Source: Desulfomonile tiedjei
GTDB taxonomy: Bacteria > Desulfobacterota > Desulfomonilia > Desulfomonilales > Desulfomonilaceae
Assembly (NCBI GenBank): GCA_016212935.1
Contig: JACRDE010000184.1
Span: forward strand, 1-41,287
Reading direction: 5' to 3'
DNA: 41,287 bases
A program made the position numbers and the translations under genes. Below are positions 1 to 12,563 of this stretch, in pieces; within the stretch, counting starts at the first letter, position 1, and the number at the start of each line of letters is the position of its first letter. Below the pieces are notes generated by a model that was given only the letters and a program-made list of their open reading frames with translations, was not told the DNA's origin and did no database searches.

Positions 1-288
1 CTGATGCCTGATCGGGTCCAGAAGAGCCGGAACGTCAATCCCGTTCGGGCACCGTGCACCGCATGTGTGACAAGTCAGGCAGAGCCACAGGCTCTTGGAA
101 TCCAATATGCGGTCAACGTTTCCCAGCACGGCGAGCCGCACTAGTTGATGAGGAAGCAGATCCATCTCCGCTGCCATGGGGCATCCAGCGGAACACTTGC
201 CACACTGGTAACATTGATTAATCACCGAGGCCAAATCCGCGATAGGTCCAGATAGGCGGACAGAGCCCTGATTAAAGGCTTGCTGCAT
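1..288 (-). CDS. HdrC-like 4Fe-4S electron-transfer subunit (3' end cut by window edge)
   Basis: The 96 visible codons encode the N-terminal part of a heterodisulfide-reductase subunit C-type protein. Two ferredoxin motifs are visible, CYQCGKCSAGCP near residue 27 and CLTCHTCGARCP near residue 72, each followed by the Pro and hydrophobic pattern of HdrC/GlpC-type proteins. Such subunits pass electrons between HdrA and a CCG-domain HdrB or other partner in the cytoplasm. The ATG at 288 is preceded by AGGAG (295-299) six bases upstream; another ATG at 293 is out of frame. The gene lies 112 bases after the HdrA stop on the same strand, so the two are probably co-transcribed. The C-terminus lies outside the window, so the presence of HdrB-like CCG domains cannot be judged. 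Confidence 0.88.
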   Translation of the reverse strand, partial: MQQAFNQGSVRLSGPIADLASVINQCYQCGKCSAGCPMAAEMDLLPHQLVRLAVLGNVDRILDSKSLWLCLTCHTCGARCPNGIDVPALLDPIRHQ

Positions 289-400: not shown

Positions 401-3400
401 CTATGAAGCGCTTTCCAAGAGAGCGTCGATTTCTTGGAACACTTGATCATCCCTGAAGTGCTGGAGCTCGATGGCCTTTGCGGGACAAACAGAGGAACAG
501 ATGCCACATCCCTGACACAATGCCGGAACGATTTCAGCAACGTGCTCCTCGGTGATACGCGGTGCCCCATAGGGGCAAAGTCTCACGCATGTCAAACAAA
601 CAGCGCACTTGGAACCGTCAACTTTGGAGATAACTCCAGGGAAGGTCATTTCATCTTTGCTCAGGATGATGGCCGCCCTCTGGGCAGCGGCTGTGGCCTG
701 TGCAATTGACTCGTCTATTGGCTTGGGGTAGTGGGCAAGGCCCGCGAGGAACACACCCTCAGTGGTGAAGTCCACCGGGCGGAGTTTCATATGGGCTTCC
801 ACAAAGTACCCGTTGGAGTTGACTGTCACCTTGAACAATTGACCGAGTTGGCGAGTGCTCTCGCCGGGGTCCACCGCTGCGGCCAACGTCAAAAGATCCG
901 CCGTAATGCTGATGTTTTCGTCCAGCACAGGATCGCGGACCACCACCTTCACCTTGTCGCCCGCGGCTTCCACTGTGGGCTTTGTTTCAGGGTCGAACCG
1001 CACGAATACCGTTCCACCCTTGCGGGAATCAGCGTAGTATTTCTCCAACAACCCGTAGGTCCTGAGGTCACGATAGAGAATGTAGGTTTTAGCGTCGGGA
1101 TTGATCTCTTTGAGTCTTTCGGACAGGCGTACCGACCCGGCGCAGCAGATCTTCGAGCACCATGGTCGCTCGTCGCAGCGGGACCCTACGCATTGGATGA
1201 AGACGGCGCTCTTGACATTTTTCAGCGTGGGATCTCCGGCTATGATTCGCTCTTCCAGCGTATGCTGAGTAACAACGGCCGGGTGTTCCCCGTACAGGTA
1301 TTCCTTGGGCTTGGATTCCACTGCGCCAGTAGCGATGAGAGCTGCACCGAATTCCAAATCCTGGGAGCTGCCGTTGAAGGACACCTTGCCTTTGAAATGC
1401 CCGACATGACCCGTAAGATCACCAAAAGACGCGCCCTTGAACACCTGAACCTTTGGGTGGGCTTCCACCTTCGAAATCAAATCGGTAACGAACGGCCTAA
1501 CGGGTTCGCCGTGAATGGTCTTCTCAATGGAAAGAGCGTTTCCGCCTAACTTATCGGATTTTTCAACAAGGTAGACGTCGAATCCTTGATCGCCCAGGTT
1601 CAACGCGGAAGTCATTCCAGCAACGCCTCCACCGAGAACCAGTGCGTTGGGGCAGACTTCCATCTTGCCTTTTTCCAGAGGAGCAAGCAGCTGCGCCCTG
1701 GCAACGGCCATTCTAGCTAAATCCATGGCCTTCAGGGTGGCTTCTTCCTTGTGTGAGGCATGGACCCAGGAACACTGATCCCGAATGTTCGTCATGGTGA
1801 AAAGGTACGGGTTCAACCCTGACTTTTCCATGGTCAACTGGAACATGGGCTCGTGGGTTCTGGGGCTGCATGCTGCCACAACCAGACGATTGAGGCGATT
1901 TTCTTCAATTATCTTGAGGAACGCCTCCTGGGTATCTTGAGAGCATGTGAAGAGTCTCTCCTCGGCTATTACCACATTGGGCAGCGTTCTTACGTGCTCA
2001 ACCACCCTGGGCACATCAACAGTGTTGGCGATGTTAATGCCGCAACGGCAAATAAAAACCCCTATTCTAGGCTCCTCCTCGGAAATGTCTCTCTGCGGAG
2101 GAAATTGAATCTTCGTTGTCATGGTATTTCTGGCAGTTGCCAAAAGCTTGGAAGAAGCGCCCGCTGCTGCGGATGCTTCCATGACCGTTTGAGGAATATC
2201 CTTGGGCCCCTGGAGCATGCCGGCAACGAAAACACCGGGCCTTGTGCTGCTCACGGGCTCAAAGGAGGTGGTCGCGCAGAACTTGGACTCGTTGAGCTCC
2301 ACTCCCAGCTTCTCGGCCATGGCTCTGGACTCTTCCGAGGTCCTGAGACCCACAGCCAGAACCACCATGTCGAAGGTTTCTGTTGAGAGCTTCTGGCTCT
2401 CGTCCAAATATGTGATACCAAGATTGTGAGTGATCGGGTCTTCAACAACCCTGCTGATCATGGAATGAATGAAACGGACTCCGCCTTCGTTCTTGGCTCG
2501 TTCGTAGTACGCGTCGAAGTCCTTTCCGTAAGCCCGGATGTCCATGTAAAAGATAGTGGGTTCTATGTTTGAGTCGTGCTCTTTGGCGATTACTGCTTCC
2601 TTTATGGAAGCCATGCAGCAGATCGAGCTGCAATGGGGCATACCCTTTTGTGCGTCTCTGGAACCCACGCACTGAATCCAGGCGACCTTCTTGGGGTGTT
2701 TGTCGTCGGAGGGTCTTTTCACCTCGCCAGCGTTGGGGCCGGAAGCTGACAACATGCGCTCGAATTCCATATTAGTGAGCACGTTGGGCGCTGTTCCGTA
2801 CGAAAACTCTCCCCGGATCTTGTCCGGATTGATCATCTCGTAACCGGTTGAGAGGATGATCGTTCCCACCTTGACGGTGAGCAGTTCGTCATCCATGGTG
2901 TGATCCACAGCCTCGGCGGGGCAGGCTTTTACGCACTCCATACATTCCGAGCAGACTCCGCAGTTGAGGCAACGGTTGGCCTCTCTGACTGCTTCATTCT
3001 CCGCAAAAGCCAACTCAACCTCAGAGAATCCCTTCCGCTCCGCGGGCGACAGTTCGGCACTCTTGGCTCTGGCTTCCGGCCTGATATTGGGAATAGGCGG
3101 ATATTCGGGATTGTCCGTGCCCGTCCAGGGCCGGCCCTCATACATGTCTTCGCCTTTTATCTGACGAGATATTGATTCGGCTGCTTGTTTCCCCGCGGCC
3201 ACTGCTTCCACGACTGTTGCCGGGCCTGTGCCCGCGTCGCCGCCTGAAAACACGCCAGGTATTGAAGTCGCGTACGAGATGGGATCGACAGCAATAGTGT
3301 TTCTTCGAGTGCGCTCAAGATCCTGGATGCCGTCCCAAAGGGCAGGGTCAATGATCTGGCCGATAGCGGGAATTATGGTATCAACGTCAACCACGAATTC

Positions 3401-4828
3401 CGAGCCTTGAATTGGGACAGGGCGCCTGCGGCCGGAATCGTCCGGCGGACCCAGTTCCATTTTTATGCATTTCAGTCCGCTGACATTTCCGTTGCTGGAG
3501 ACAACTTCGACTGGAGCAGTTAGGAACTGGATTTTTACGCCCTCTTCGATAGCCGCATCCACTTCCGCCATGAAAGCTGGCATTTCCTGTCTGGAACGCC
3601 GATAGAGTATATGGACGTCAGCCCCCAATCGGCTGAGTATCCTGGCAGCGTCTATGGCAACGTTTCCACCACCGATGACCGCTGCTTTCTTTACACCGTT
3701 GGCCGGTTTGCCCAAAGCCGCGTCCCGAAGGAAATCAACTCCCTGAATCACTCCTTGGGTATTTTCTCCGGGGATGGCTAGACTCGCGCCCTTCTGACAC
3801 CCTACTGCCAGATAAATCGCCTTGTAGCCCTGATCCTTGAGATCCTGGACGGAGAAGTCTTTGCCCAGAGCGGTATTTGTTTTTGCCTCAACACCGAGGC
3901 TAAGGATATGCTGAATTTCTTTTTCCAGGACGTCCCTGGGAAGCCTGTATTCGGGAATCCCAACTCTAAGCCAGCCTCCTAGGACGGGCCCGGCTTCGAA
4001 AATTGTTACCTTGTATCCTTCCAGAGCCAGATAATAAGCAGCGGAAAGACCGGCAGGCCCTGAACCGACGATGGCCACCTTTTCTTCACGAGGAGTGATT
4101 TCAGGCAAAGTCAGGGACGAATAATCAATCTGGTCGGCTGCAAATCTCTTCAATTTGCAGATGGAAACAGGTTGGTCTTTCTCGGCCCTGCGGCATACGG
4201 TCTCGCAGGGATGAGGACAGACCCGGCCCAAAACCCCGGGAAGAGGAAGTTGCTTATAAATTAGCTCAACGGCTTGCTTGTATTTTCCCTGAGTGATCAG
4301 CTGAACATAGCCCTGAACGTTAATATGGGCAGGGCATGTCATGACGCAGGGAGCGCGGTCTGCCTTGTCAATAACGAACGTCTGAGGAATAGTTTGGGGA
4401 AAGAGCCTATAAGTCGCGGATCTTTTGCTGAGATCCTCATCAAACTTGTTAGGCAGGTGAACCGGGCACACGCTCGCGCAATCGCCGCATGCCTTGCATC
4501 GGTCTTTTCTGATGTATCTGGATTTCTGCCGGATTGTGACCGTGAAATTGCCTTCTTGCCCCTGGACGTCTGCCAGTTCGCTGTAAGAAAGGAGCTCTAT
4601 ATTTGGGTTCTGTCCCACTGTAACCAGCTTCGGCGAGAAGATGCACGTGGAGCAATCATTGGTGGGGAAAGTCTTATCGAGTTGGGCCATTCGGCCGCCG
4701 ATTCCCGTCTGATTCTCAACCAGATATACCTTGTAACCTGATTCGGCGAGGTCTAATGAGGCCTGAACTCCGGCAATTCCGCCTCCGACGACGAGGGCGG
4801 CGCCTACCACGTCCTTCGGTTGGGCCAT
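401..4828 (-). CDS. HdrA-type flavin/iron-sulfur oxidoreductase with inserted GltD-like module and a second HdrA module
   Basis: This 1475-residue cytoplasmic protein is likely an electron-transfer or electron-bifurcating HdrA homologue. Order of parts: FAD motif VVGGGIAGVQASLDLAESG (13-31) and a Cys 59/62 pair; ferredoxin motif CKACGDCASVCP (111-122); an inserted GltD/NfnB-like module (about 160-610) with CVMTCPAHIN, a second Cys cluster (204-212), FAD motif VAIVGSGPAGLSAAYYLALE (251-270), NAD(P)H motif AAVIGGGNVAIDAARILSRL (382-401) and GVFSGGDAGTGPATVVEAV; then CLNCGVCSECMECVKACP (620-637); the rest of HdrA with WIQCVGSR and CSSICC; a second HdrA half with FICRCG (926), a new FAD motif (1063), QCVGSR and CSKICC; and two C-terminal ferredoxin motifs from 1408 and 1438. 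The start at 4828 has GGAAGGTG upstream; a longer in-frame reading to 4909 lacks HdrA-like residues. A typical HdrA is about 650 residues, so this is a tandem fusion. The electron donor and acceptor are not visible. Confidence 0.92.
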   Translation of the reverse strand: MAQPKDVVGAALVVGGGIAGVQASLDLAESGYKVYLVENQTGIGGRMAQLDKTFPTNDCSTCIFSPKLVTVGQNPNIELLSYSELADVQGQEGNFTVTIRQKSRYIRKDRCKACGDCASVCPVHLPNKFDEDLSKRSATYRLFPQTIPQTFVIDKADRAPCVMTCPAHINVQGYVQLITQGKYKQAVELIYKQLPLPGVLGRVCPHPCETVCRRAEKDQPVSICKLKRFAADQIDYSSLTLPEITPREEKVAIVGSGPAGLSAAYYLALEGYKVTIFEAGPVLGGWLRVGIPEYRLPRDVLEKEIQHILSLGVEAKTNTALGKDFSVQDLKDQGYKAIYLAVGCQKGASLAIPGENTQGVIQGVDFLRDAALGKPANGVKKAAVIGGGNVAIDAARILSRLGADVHILYRRSRQEMPAFMAEVDAAIEEGVKIQFLTAPVEVVSSNGNVSGLKCIKMELGPPDDSGRRRPVPIQGSEFVVDVDTIIPAIGQIIDPALWDGIQDLERTRRNTIAVDPISYATSIPGVFSGGDAGTGPATVVEAVAAGKQAAESISRQIKGEDMYEGRPWTGTDNPEYPPIPNIRPEARAKSAELSPAERKGFSEVELAFAENEAVREANRCLNCGVCSECMECVKACPAEAVDHTMDDELLTVKVGTIILSTGYEMINPDKIRGEFSYGTAPNVLTNMEFERMLSASGPNAGEVKRPSDDKHPKKVAWIQCVGSRDAQKGMPHCSSICCMASIKEAVIAKEHDSNIEPTIFYMDIRAYGKDFDAYYERAKNEGGVRFIHSMISRVVEDPITHNLGITYLDESQKLSTETFDMVVLAVGLRTSEESRAMAEKLGVELNESKFCATTSFEPVSSTRPGVFVAGMLQGPKDIPQTVMEASAAAGASSKLLATARNTMTTKIQFPPQRDISEEEPRIGVFICRCGINIANTVDVPRVVEHVRTLPNVVIAEERLFTCSQDTQEAFLKIIEENRLNRLVVAACSPRTHEPMFQLTMEKSGLNPYLFTMTNIRDQCSWVHASHKEEATLKAMDLARMAVARAQLLAPLEKGKMEVCPNALVLGGGVAGMTSALNLGDQGFDVYLVEKSDKLGGNALSIEKTIHGEPVRPFVTDLISKVEAHPKVQVFKGASFGDLTGHVGHFKGKVSFNGSSQDLEFGAALIATGAVESKPKEYLYGEHPAVVTQHTLEERIIAGDPTLKNVKSAVFIQCVGSRCDERPWCSKICCAGSVRLSERLKEINPDAKTYILYRDLRTYGLLEKYYADSRKGGTVFVRFDPETKPTVEAAGDKVKVVVRDPVLDENISITADLLTLAAAVDPGESTRQLGQLFKVTVNSNGYFVEAHMKLRPVDFTTEGVFLAGLAHYPKPIDESIAQATAAAQRAAIILSKDEMTFPGVISKVDGSKCAVCLTCVRLCPYGAPRITEEHVAEIVPALCQGCGICSSVCPAKAIELQHFRDDQVFQEIDALLESAS

Positions 4829-4945
4829 AGGAGATTCACCTTCCGAGAGATTTTTTTTGAGTGCGATGGAATGTCTTCTATACTTAGCAGTTGCAGCACT
4901 GTCTGTCAATAATTGCGGCGTCGCAATCGGTGACGAAAGCGGGGC

Positions 4946-6292
4946 TCAATTTCCGTCTGTCCCTATTTGTAGAGAGATGCGTTTTCGAATTTCGCTGAGG
5001 AATTGCTCGTCAACTTCAGGATCGGCCGCAGAGAGCAACGTGCAGTTTTGAAACAAAGGTTCTTTGTCGATGGGATACCTGCTGCGAGCAAGTGACTCTC
5101 GCCACATGGCGGTGCCTGGGATCGGAGAGAATTCGGCTAGCTTAGGGTGTGCTCCCGCTGCAAGCACGGCTTCTACGTCGGCTTCAATCATTTCCCTGGA
5201 CTGCCCTGGTAGACCCACCAGAAGGTAGGTCCCGATTTGTTTCCTGGAAAAGCCCGCATCTTTGAGATGCTCAACAGCGGAAAAAAAACCCCGAAAAGCG
5301 GTTTTTCCACCCGTCCGAGCGTGGAATTCATCAGACAAACTTTCCAGCCCGATGCGAATCGTCTCAAAACCCCCTCTTTTCATAGCCAGAGCAGTGGCGC
5401 GGTCGATAGCGGATGCGTGCAACCCATTTGGTGCATGGATGCGTATTCCCGGCAGCCGTTCGGCTATGTTATCGAGAATCGGGATCGCCTGTTCCTGTGA
5501 GTGCACAAGGAACGCGTCATCATAAAGTGCTACGTCTTTGATACCGTATTGCACGCAAGCTCTTTCAATTTCCTGAATCACTTCCTCAGGATCTCGCGTG
5601 ACGAAGCTCGGCGCCAGAATGCGGGAAGCGCAATAAGCGCACTTGAAAGGGCACCCGCGGGAAGTAATCAGGGGCAAGAACCGCACCTTGCGCATCAAAT
5701 CAAGTGCAGGGGAAAATTCAAGCGTATTCGCCTGTTCGTCTGCAGCAGAAGCTATTCCGGTCCAGTGAAACAGAAGCTCTGAAAGTCCAGCCTCGCCAGG
5801 CCCCGGCAGAACATCATCCGCTCCAGCGCTGATTCGGGCATGGTCGGGAAGGAGCGAGGCGTAGATGCCGCCCAGCAAGATCGGTACGCGGGGATAAGCT
5901 TCCCGCAGAAGCTGTACAGTTTCCCTCACGCCCGGATACCAGTAGGTCATGAGACTCGTCACAAGAATTAATGCCGGCCGCGGAATGGACTCCAGGTCCT
6001 TTGTCAGTATCTCAGGGGCTATGCCATACCGGCAGTAGGTCCTTCGGATTCCTTGCAGACATTCAGGGCGTGGTATAGGACTTCTGTGGAATCGGCCGTG
6101 CGCGTGCGATCGAACCTTGATTCGCGGCATTTCGGGGTGATCCGGATCCACACAGTCGAGCAAACGTGGTTCCCAACCAAGCTTTCTCAGCCTGGACGCC
6201 AACACCAGCAGACCCATCGGTCTCGCCCACAGATCGTACGCTGCGAAATCATGTATCCAGGGATTTACAAGGAGAATTTGGGGCCGTTTCAT
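4946..6292 (-). CDS. B12-binding-domain radical SAM protein
   Basis: A 448-residue protein with an N-terminal cobalamin-binding-like Rossmann domain (starts MKRPQILLVNPW; GLLVLASRLRKLGW; later ILLGGIYASLLPDHA) followed by a radical SAM core with TSRGCPFKCAYCAS, the CxxxCxxC ligands of the SAM-binding 4Fe-4S cluster. GLESLSDEFHARTGGKT and GTYLLVGLPGQ are typical of the SAM barrel. The substrate cannot be told: this class includes methyltransferases and ring-forming enzymes. An upstream TTG at 6370 is in frame but has no ribosome site, whereas ATG 6292 begins exactly at the family-like sequence and has a weak AGGA upstream. The HdrA gene follows after 117 bases on the same strand, so they may share a transcript. 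It is divergent from ybaB. Confidence 0.85.
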   Translation of the reverse strand: MKRPQILLVNPWIHDFAAYDLWARPMGLLVLASRLRKLGWEPRLLDCVDPDHPEMPRIKVRSHAHGRFHRSPIPRPECLQGIRRTYCRYGIAPEILTKDLESIPRPALILVTSLMTYWYPGVRETVQLLREAYPRVPILLGGIYASLLPDHARISAGADDVLPGPGEAGLSELLFHWTGIASAADEQANTLEFSPALDLMRKVRFLPLITSRGCPFKCAYCASRILAPSFVTRDPEEVIQEIERACVQYGIKDVALYDDAFLVHSQEQAIPILDNIAERLPGIRIHAPNGLHASAIDRATALAMKRGGFETIRIGLESLSDEFHARTGGKTAFRGFFSAVEHLKDAGFSRKQIGTYLLVGLPGQSREMIEADVEAVLAAGAHPKLAEFSPIPGTAMWRESLARSRYPIDKEPLFQNCTLLSAADPEVDEQFLSEIRKRISLQIGTDGN

Positions 6293-6510
6293 GTTAGTTT
6301 GTGTCCTGCACGTGTGCCTTGGTAGTGTGTAACGAAAAATGCCAACAATCAAGGCAACAGACCCTTTCAAGGAGGAAAAGAACCGGAACCGATTGGAGGG
6401 TGTATATTATTCGCAGGAGGCGTTGAGAAATTTTTGTTCGCCCGCCCTAAGTCCGGACTCCCGGCTAGGGCTGTCACTTGACTCGAAACGAAAAAAAGGA
6501 GGTTCATGAC

Positions 6511-11182: not shown

Positions 11183-12235
11183 TCAGTGGATCAAGTGCTC
11201 AGGTATTTTGATCTTCCGCTCCTTATAATAGCGTAGAGCTCCTTTGTGAAGCGGAACGTTCAGCTTCTCCAGCGCCTTTTCCAGAGATATGCTCTTACAC
11301 GCAGGGTGGACTCGAATCAGGTAATCGAGATTCTCGTAAAGACTCTTTGTGAGGGCGTAAACAACATCCGGGTTTAATGAAGATGTCACCGCAAGCATGT
11401 TGGTATGTCCCAACGTGTTAACCGGTTTTTCCTGTCCTGAATACGAACCGGCAGGAATGGTGACCCGGAACACGTTCTTCCAGCCTTCCTCTCGCACCGA
11501 CTCCATTTGACCTTCAGAAATCTCGAGAAAACCAAGAAGGGACTTTCCCTCGTTGAACAGCTGGGCTACAAGTGGAATCGGCACGCCGCCTGTAAAATCT
11601 ATACCATCAACAAGGCCCTTTCTTAGTGCTTCTGCTGCGGCCAGATTACTCATGGGGCGGAGCCTCGGTTTCGGCCTGCTTCCCTTCAATGACCTGAGGA
11701 GTAATTCAGTGACAAATCTGTTCCCACTGTCCGGCAAACCAGTGGCAAGTGATAAGCCGTCCAAGTCCTGAAGAGCGCCGGTCGATATTTTGTCAGACCT
11801 TATCAGCAGGTGCAGAACGTCCGGCCACAGCGCCGTTATGCTTCTCAACTCCGGCACTGGCTGACCTCTGAAGAGACCGGTACCTGTCACAGCCATGGAA
11901 CAGAAGAGATCCTCGACCAGAATAAGATCGGCATCAGCTATCCGAATTGCTTCGATATTCTCCATGGAGCCCTCGGACATTGCCGCTGAAACCCTTATGC
12001 CCGCTTCCCGGAGTCTAGTGGTCCACAGCGATGCCATCCCGAGTCCTACGTGATAGTACGTTCCTCCGGGCATCCCGGTAGCGATGAGGATCGAAATCCT
12101 GGCTGGATCCCTGGTTTGACTGAAAGACTCAGAAAGAAAACAGCTGAGGAGACAAATGATTACAAGAAAAACGATCAGCCGTTTATTTCTTCCCGCGCTT
12201 TTCTTTGGAGGGCAAATTTCAGGTACGCATGTCAT
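11183..12235 (-). CDS. TAXI family TRAP-type solute-binding protein
   Basis: A 350-residue exported binding protein. After a basic stretch (KKSAGRNKR) comes a hydrophobic signal or anchor segment (LIVFLVIICLLSCFL), then the TAXI-type start of the mature domain, ISILIATGMPGGTYYHVGLGM, where the motif GGTYYHVG is diagnostic. Further family features are SEGSMENIEAIRIADADLILVEDL and the C-terminal half with PVNTLGHTNMLAV and ALTKSLYENLDYL. These proteins feed carboxylates or amino acids to a TRAP membrane unit, but no TRAP permease gene is adjacent, so it is an orphan. ATG 12235 (AGGA just upstream) is preferred over ATG 12250 and TTG 12289, which have no ribosome site. The ligand is unknown. Confidence 0.85.
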   Translation of the reverse strand: MTCVPEICPPKKSAGRNKRLIVFLVIICLLSCFLSESFSQTRDPARISILIATGMPGGTYYHVGLGMASLWTTRLREAGIRVSAAMSEGSMENIEAIRIADADLILVEDLFCSMAVTGTGLFRGQPVPELRSITALWPDVLHLLIRSDKISTGALQDLDGLSLATGLPDSGNRFVTELLLRSLKGSRPKPRLRPMSNLAAAEALRKGLVDGIDFTGGVPIPLVAQLFNEGKSLLGFLEISEGQMESVREEGWKNVFRVTIPAGSYSGQEKPVNTLGHTNMLAVTSSLNPDVVYALTKSLYENLDYLIRVHPACKSISLEKALEKLNVPLHKGALRYYKERKIKIPEHLIH

Positions 12236-12563
12236 GTTTCCTGGGCCCATTTGCAGGAAAAAGGCGTCAACACACAATTCAGAATGCAAGACATACGCGG
12301 CTCATTTTCCGAATAGTCATTCTGGGATATGGCCAACCGGAACAGCACGGTCCCGTGATTACCGAAGCGGCCGTGAACGGCCTATCTAAGTTTATTTTCC
12401 CACATATAATCGACGGCAAAGTATAGACTTGACGAGGCCCCTTAGCAATGGAATCTTTTCGCCGGGGGGGGGGCAGTTCTCTGGTAGGACGCCTTCTAGA
12501 TAACCGAGAACGATTAATGCCAGCTGTAGGTGTTGTAGCCGAAAGACTGAAAGAGGTGTTCGT
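12236..12563. other. Divergent intergenic region with a 10-G tract
   Basis: This stretch separates two divergent genes and holds the promoters of both. The outstanding feature is an uninterrupted run of ten G at 12464-12473, 90 bases before the CAP-domain gene. Open frames across it carry no family features. No clear -35/-10 pair was found. Confidence 0.5.

Follow-up and report, generated by a model that had tools for sequence, protein, structure and literature searches.

The window, as we call the whole stretch of 41,287 nucleotides of Desulfomonile tiedjei DNA analysed here (contig JACRDE010000184.1), carries at 401..4828 of the minus strand a gene of the hdrL type, encoding an HdrA1(GltD)-HdrA2 fusion of 1,475 amino acids. 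The reading frame is open over 401..4909 (minus), with the natural ATG at 4828 and the stop codon at 401-403. The fusion had been recognized in a preliminary description of this DNA, in which the strand was not given. An HdrC-like partner following the fusion was also claimed there and could be located. The 5' part of hdrC (1..288, minus) begins with an ATG at 288 and comprises 96 codons of a frame that runs without a stop to position 1, where the contig begins and the gene is cut. Directly upstream of hdrL a radical-SAM-like gene was found, as judged by its sequence (4946..6370, minus); members of its family (cluster c10) also precede HdrL at six loci of the bacterial family to which the window belongs.

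HdrA models of Pfam and NCBIfam matched both ends of the protein, and models of GltD or NADPH-dependent glutamate synthase matched the middle. In a phmmer search against solved structures, residues 36-155 and 626-843 aligned with residues 171-290 and 293-510 of the methanogen HdrA 5odc_A. The approximately 469 residues between both segments (156-624) were unmatched by this HdrA, and residues 158-560, extending up to 633, matched chains of the GltD/NfnB type. From the position of the joints 155/626 on the 5odc_A HdrA it follows that the GltD insert splits the inserted ferredoxin domain between its motif 1 (C111-C121) and its motif 2 (C626-C636), both of the form CxxCxxCxxxC. Hence, a GltD/NfnB-like module does lie between two ferredoxin motifs of a first HdrA, as described before, with 469 instead of about 450 residues. 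The second HdrA half, also claimed before, is fused behind the first one: residues 918-1096 and 1297-1471 aligned with residues 2-180 and 473-650 of 5odc_A.

The first part of HdrA-1 (residues 1-155; 4364..4828, minus) contains the FAD Rossmann motif, C59/C62, of which C62 corresponds to Cys197 of 5odc_A in the alignment, and C111, C114, C117 and C121, the first cluster motif of the inserted ferredoxin. It is followed by the GltD/NfnB-like insert (156-624; 2957..4363, minus) with two [4Fe-4S] sites and sites for FAD and NADP(H). The second part of HdrA-1 (625-905; 2114..2956, minus) comprises the second ferredoxin motif (C626, C629, C632, C636), the cluster of the TrxR domain (C720/C733/C737/C738) and the residues E690 and K743. 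In HdrA-2 (906-1475; 404..2113, minus) an N-terminal cluster domain (C927, C929, C962, C987), the cluster of the FAD/TrxR domain (C1213/C1224/C1228/C1229) and a C-terminal ferredoxin with eight Cys within 1408-1448 were identified. Neither an inserted ferredoxin nor an equivalent of Cys197 was detected in HdrA-2 by the alignment to 5odc_A and the comparison of 58 sequences. The two halves are complementary: HdrA-1 has the Cys197 equivalent and no N-terminal domain, and HdrA-2 has the N-terminal domain and no Cys197 equivalent. For archaeal double HdrAs such complementarity was read as an intramolecular heterodimer by Chadwick et al. (PMC9012536). These archaeal proteins (type II HdrA, HdrA3-4) share two HdrA units per chain, a complementary N-terminal domain and Cys197 with the window protein, but they contain no GltD module, and their reported order is reversed, as the window protein has Cys197 in the first and the N-terminal domain in the second half.

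Among solved structures the insert is closest to the GltD modules of StnC, of the large subunit of NfnABC and of NfnB, each with two [4Fe-4S] clusters, FAD and an NADP(H) site. In structural alignments identities of approximately 41-47% to NfnABC, StnC and NfnB chains were found over 390-480 residues. The RCLNC segment is located at the C-terminal end of the insert, likewise in 9bov, StnC and 9n5u, whereas it is N-terminal in NfnB. Thus, the insert represents a circular permutation of the NfnB arrangement. In these proteins the GltD module stands alone or is joined to other domains, NuoG-like ones in the case of StnC, whereas that of the window protein is fused to HdrA.

Structure prediction supports that both the HdrA and the GltD folds are intact. 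The AlphaFold model of residues 1-1055 (pLDDT 88.8, pTM 0.82), calculated like the second one as a protein chain without cofactors, superposed with its HdrA core across the insertion on 8rwn_A (Z 53.8, 424 residues, 1.2 A). For the insert of the same model superpositions were obtained with NfnABC 9bov_A (Z 51.4, 473 residues, 1.6 A) and with NfnL 5jca_L in its NADP-bound form (Z 40.5, 400 residues, 1.5 A). For residues 905-1475 (pLDDT 89.0) the whole HdrA without the inserted ferredoxin was matched (8rvu_A, Z 43.6, 549 residues, 2.4 A). A blocked GltD-like flavin site had been named beforehand as the result that would speak against a functional module; no sign of a destroyed site was seen in the predicted fold.

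The order HdrA1-GltD-HdrA1-HdrA2 was found in a single reading frame in the window protein and in 57 further full-length relatives. Orthologues of equal length with 75-88% identity occur across the bacterial family of the window, and a chance fusion, a frameshift or a chimera was rejected for this reason. Together with cluster cysteines that are invariant or nearly so, they make chance or an assembly artefact very unlikely. At least 582 relatives were found in GTDB contigs, and the best 80 loci among them are mostly full-length copies in a single frame. These best 80 include full-length copies from about ten bacterial phyla, i.e. Thermodesulfobacteriota, Bacillota, Chloroflexota, Acidobacteriota, Planctomycetota, Delongbacteria, Cloacimonadota, Armatimonadota, Spirochaetota, Lentisphaerota and others.

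In the preliminary description a domain order that is common in relatives and already characterized was named as a result that would count against the proposal. As regards novelty this applies, since the order proved to be common in relatives, previously described (PMC9430772; PMC2702500 for HdrL) and partly characterized. For Moorella thermoacetica an HdrA was reported in 2022 in which an extra ferredoxin and a TrxR domain are interrupted by GltD and followed by a second HdrA lacking the inserted ferredoxin (PMC9430772). This subunit of MetVF-HdrABC-MvhD (162.8 kDa, about 1,487 amino acids) has the same domain order as the window protein and likewise three FADs and a single NAD(P)H site (PMC9430772). 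It lies beside MvhD and MetVF and is reported to be NADH-oxidizing, whereas NADP(H) is predicted for the window protein. The name HdrL was introduced in 2009 for HdrA/glutamate synthase fusions of the sulfate reducer Desulfobacterium autotrophicum HRM2, for which electron uptake from NADH was proposed (PMC2702500). The D. autotrophicum HdrL is linked to MvhD, with two of the three being selenoproteins, and resembles the window protein by the description as a fusion, the exact domain order aside. In archaeal type III HdrA (PMC12054007) and ANME-1 HdrA9-11 (PMC9012536) a GltD/NfnB-like insert also interrupts the inserted ferredoxin. These proteins, however, are single HdrAs without the second half that the window protein has, and GxGxxG is reported for them in place of the GGGNVA of the HdrL family. 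The layout is therefore not new: it was described in Moorella, HdrL was named earlier and copies are widespread. Our additions are modest and comprise a YRR clade unlike the Moorella-type copies, a StnC-type lysine along with invariant bifurcation residues in HdrA-1, and the apparent exchange of GltD modules.

With one exception (C114 in one sequence), the expected cluster cysteines are conserved throughout the 58 full-length sequences. The motifs C111/C114/C117/C121 and C626/C629/C632/C636 provide the ligands for two clusters. Seven cysteines (C161/C165/C204/C208/C212/C620/C623) are ligands of the GltD clusters, and the eighth ligand is probably not a cysteine but K227. The earlier expectation of three flavins and several 4Fe-4S clusters agrees with the conserved ligands, which support three FAD and nine [4Fe-4S] sites; for Moorella HdrA eight clusters were predicted (PMC9430772).

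In the window protein the NAD(P) Rossmann fold carries Y409-R410-R411 (3596..3604, minus) behind its second strand. The equivalent motif of Thermotoga maritima NfnB (Y310/R311/R312) binds the 2'-phosphate of NADP, and in the GltD-like DsrL-2 of Desulfurella YRR accompanies strict use of NADP(H), with direct kinetic support (PMC7596348). RR was found in 38 of the 58 sequences, and 19 have LE or IE. Among the latter is Moorella stamsii with LE; the HdrA of its relative M. thermoacetica was reported as NADH-oxidizing (PMC9430772, PMC8760232). Hence, a linkage to NADP(H) is predicted from YRR, and the window protein probably represents a shift from NADH to NADPH compared with the Moorella type. 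An input of NAD(P)H into a single chain, as suggested before, is consistent with motif and fold; NADPH and NADH had been left undivided, and YRR favours NADP(H). A rule from archaea, by which GxGxxG or GxGxxA tells NAD from NADP (PMC12054007), was also considered. It was set aside in view of the kinetic support for YRR and of A391 (in GGGNVA), which is invariant in the 58 sequences, even in M. stamsii, although M. thermoacetica HdrA reportedly uses NADH.

Regarding bifurcation, E690 and K743 correspond in the alignment to E356/K409, the pair that marks the bifurcating HdrA flavin, and both are present in the first TrxR domain of all 58 sequences. In the second TrxR domain E1192 is present. The position of the lysine (K1246 in M. 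thermoacetica HdrA, for which the E/K pair is reported in this domain as well) is occupied by R1234 in the window clade, so that the flavin of HdrA-2 may be inert. Lysine was found there in 38 of the 58 sequences and is thus no defining trait of the wider HdrL type. In the GltD module K227 aligns with K170 of StnC, where P. furiosus NfnL has Glu. The NfnB-type Glu is absent from the window protein, and among the 58 sequences position 227 is K in 50, H in six, E in one and R in one. The GltD FAD of StnC serves as an input flavin and does not bifurcate, despite the conserved R239 (PMC10482914). By analogy, the StnC-type lysine suggests the same role for the GltD FAD of the window protein, and bifurcation would be placed at HdrA-1.

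Considering residues and models together, we think that HdrL probably forms the core of a soluble complex similar to HdrABC, in which it would react with NADP(H), bifurcate electrons (or confurcate them in the opposite direction) and work with HdrC and HdrB. The start of hdrC (Fer4) is present in the window, and HdrB with two CCG motifs was found in relatives; the hdrB belonging to the window would lie past the contig end. The electron route, its direction, the specificity for NADP(H) and the identity of the acceptors are inferred. The GltD FAD would accept a hydride from NADPH. Electrons would then pass one at a time from the pair of GltD [4Fe-4S] clusters via the clusters of the split inserted ferredoxin to the HdrA-1 FAD, the putative bifurcating flavin marked by E690/K743. 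One branch may lead over the HdrA-2 clusters, HdrC and the two non-cubane clusters of HdrB to a disulfide-type acceptor. For the low-potential branch the exit would be a ferredoxin domain, most likely that at the C-terminus. HdrA is usually a homodimer, and HdrA-2 would take the place of its second protomer. The earlier idea of NAD(P)H feeding HdrA-type bifurcation within one polypeptide is well supported by sequence and structure prediction as far as anatomy and concept are concerned, and it agrees with the NADH oxidation reported for the Moorella homologue (PMC9430772, PMC8760232), while bifurcation itself stays putative. Two points from the literature weigh against it: in the Moorella complex NADH was not coupled to methylene-THF (PMC8760232, PMC13040438), and in the model for archaeal type III the GltD insert is proposed to bar ferredoxin from the inserted ferredoxin (PMC12054007).

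HdrL could also be a simple wire from NADP(H) to HdrBC (or MvhD) or back that does not bifurcate, the HdrA flavins being relays or structural remnants. With the HdrA of S. ovata, which has one bifurcation signature, neither NAD(P)+ nor ferredoxin was co-reduced (PMC9430772), and the canonical Lys is absent from HdrA-2 of the window protein. We nevertheless consider it unlikely, because E690/K743 are invariant in 58 of 58 sequences and the ferredoxin cluster ligands are likewise conserved. It is more doubtful still that the GltD FAD itself bifurcates as in NfnB, which would result in a chain with two bifurcation sites. R295, corresponding to R201 of NfnB by alignment, is invariant in the 58 sequences, and such a site was proposed for ANME-1 HdrA9-11 by Chadwick et al. 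(PMC9012536). However, the equivalent Arg does not bring about bifurcation in StnC, K227 is as in StnC and not Glu as in P. furiosus NfnL, and the structures closest to the insert are chains of the Stn/NfnABC type.

Very improbable, finally, is that the window HdrL is part of a Moorella-like MetVF-HdrABC-MvhD methylene-THF reductase with MetVF encoded elsewhere. Many relatives do carry an MvhD-sized gene, MetV (PF12225) and a MetF-sized gene beside HdrL, and MetV genes are present elsewhere in the window genome. In other phyla HdrL was found either in this neighbourhood or beside HdrC, HdrB and FlxA-like flavoproteins. The window contig stops inside hdrC, but in the nearest relatives (L118, L120 and L145) HdrL is followed by hdrC and then hdrB, without metV, metF or mvhD beside it, and the window protein is of the YRR type whereas that of M. 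stamsii is of the LE type. A role as BamE of a class II benzoyl-CoA reductase was rejected, as matches to the AOR family (BamB-type) in six genomes include none at hdrL loci; one AOR-family gene adjoins a different HdrA (G001, 2.30 Mb).

Presence and absence of GltD on the tree of the HdrA parts require at least seven changes, which indicates that the GltD cassette comes and goes. Furthermore, similar HdrL proteins appear to have swapped their GltD modules in place. For two proteins from Desulfarculaceae MAGs (L039:2552-7039 and L055:2-4477) the HdrA halves are 81% and 80% identical and the GltD modules 48%, one being RR and the other LE. The HdrA tree joins them with a support of 100; the GltD tree rejects the joining (p-AU 0.00225). 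In a GltD tree that has HdrL copies missed by the length filter among its rows labelled 'other', the insert may have had one origin or several. This pair was picked after inspection and MAG chimerism is possible; several further pairs with similar HdrA and divergent GltD show a comparable pattern. As a tentative proposal, HdrL may serve as a platform whose nicotinamide cassette is exchangeable, with GltD replaced within closely related HdrA-HdrA scaffolds by one of the NADH type with LE or the NADPH type with YRR. The version of the Desulfomonile family would then be a strictly NADP(H)-dependent bifurcating HdrABC, separate from methylene-THF reduction.

HdrL bears on electron exchange between the nicotinamide pool and the HdrA complexes of those bacteria that lack coenzymes M and B, and on the second acceptor used by the Moorella complex (PMC8760232, PMC13040438). 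No new kind of system is revealed by the window HdrL. As a well-conserved form it leads to a clear prediction, the use of NADPH and not of NADH, and its compact hdrL-hdrC-hdrB operon is open to expression and assay.

Several related genes were observed in addition. The window genome has a second full-length HdrL with 62% identity (L002, G000:C272:4420-8853), without adjacent hdrC or hdrB ORFs. In the genome of the same genus hdrC behind hdrL is frameshifted (L118:7278-7914); in that genome an intact hdrCB copy with 96.8% identity adjoins a double HdrA (L119:2351-3816). The L120 cluster (G004) shows the order HdrL, HdrC, HdrB, a double HdrA of 1,010 amino acids that lacks GltD, an HdrD-like protein and fragments of HdrA, along with two FlpD/MvhD genes, each containing an in-frame TGA. 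Such genes with one in-frame TGA near HdrA clusters, recognized by the FlpD profile PF02662 as a proxy for MvhD, were located at L119:7007-7375 and 11963-12331 and at L120:7000-7368 and 2039-2407; they probably encode selenoproteins. A single-HdrA protein with GltD insert, similar to type III, is encoded at L122:7864-11211 (G000:C434). Genes for a molybdopterin oxidoreductase-like and an HdrB-like protein precede it, and FlpD comes next. In the N-terminal cluster motif of this HdrA (GVYICHUGINIG) an in-frame TGA suggests selenocysteine.
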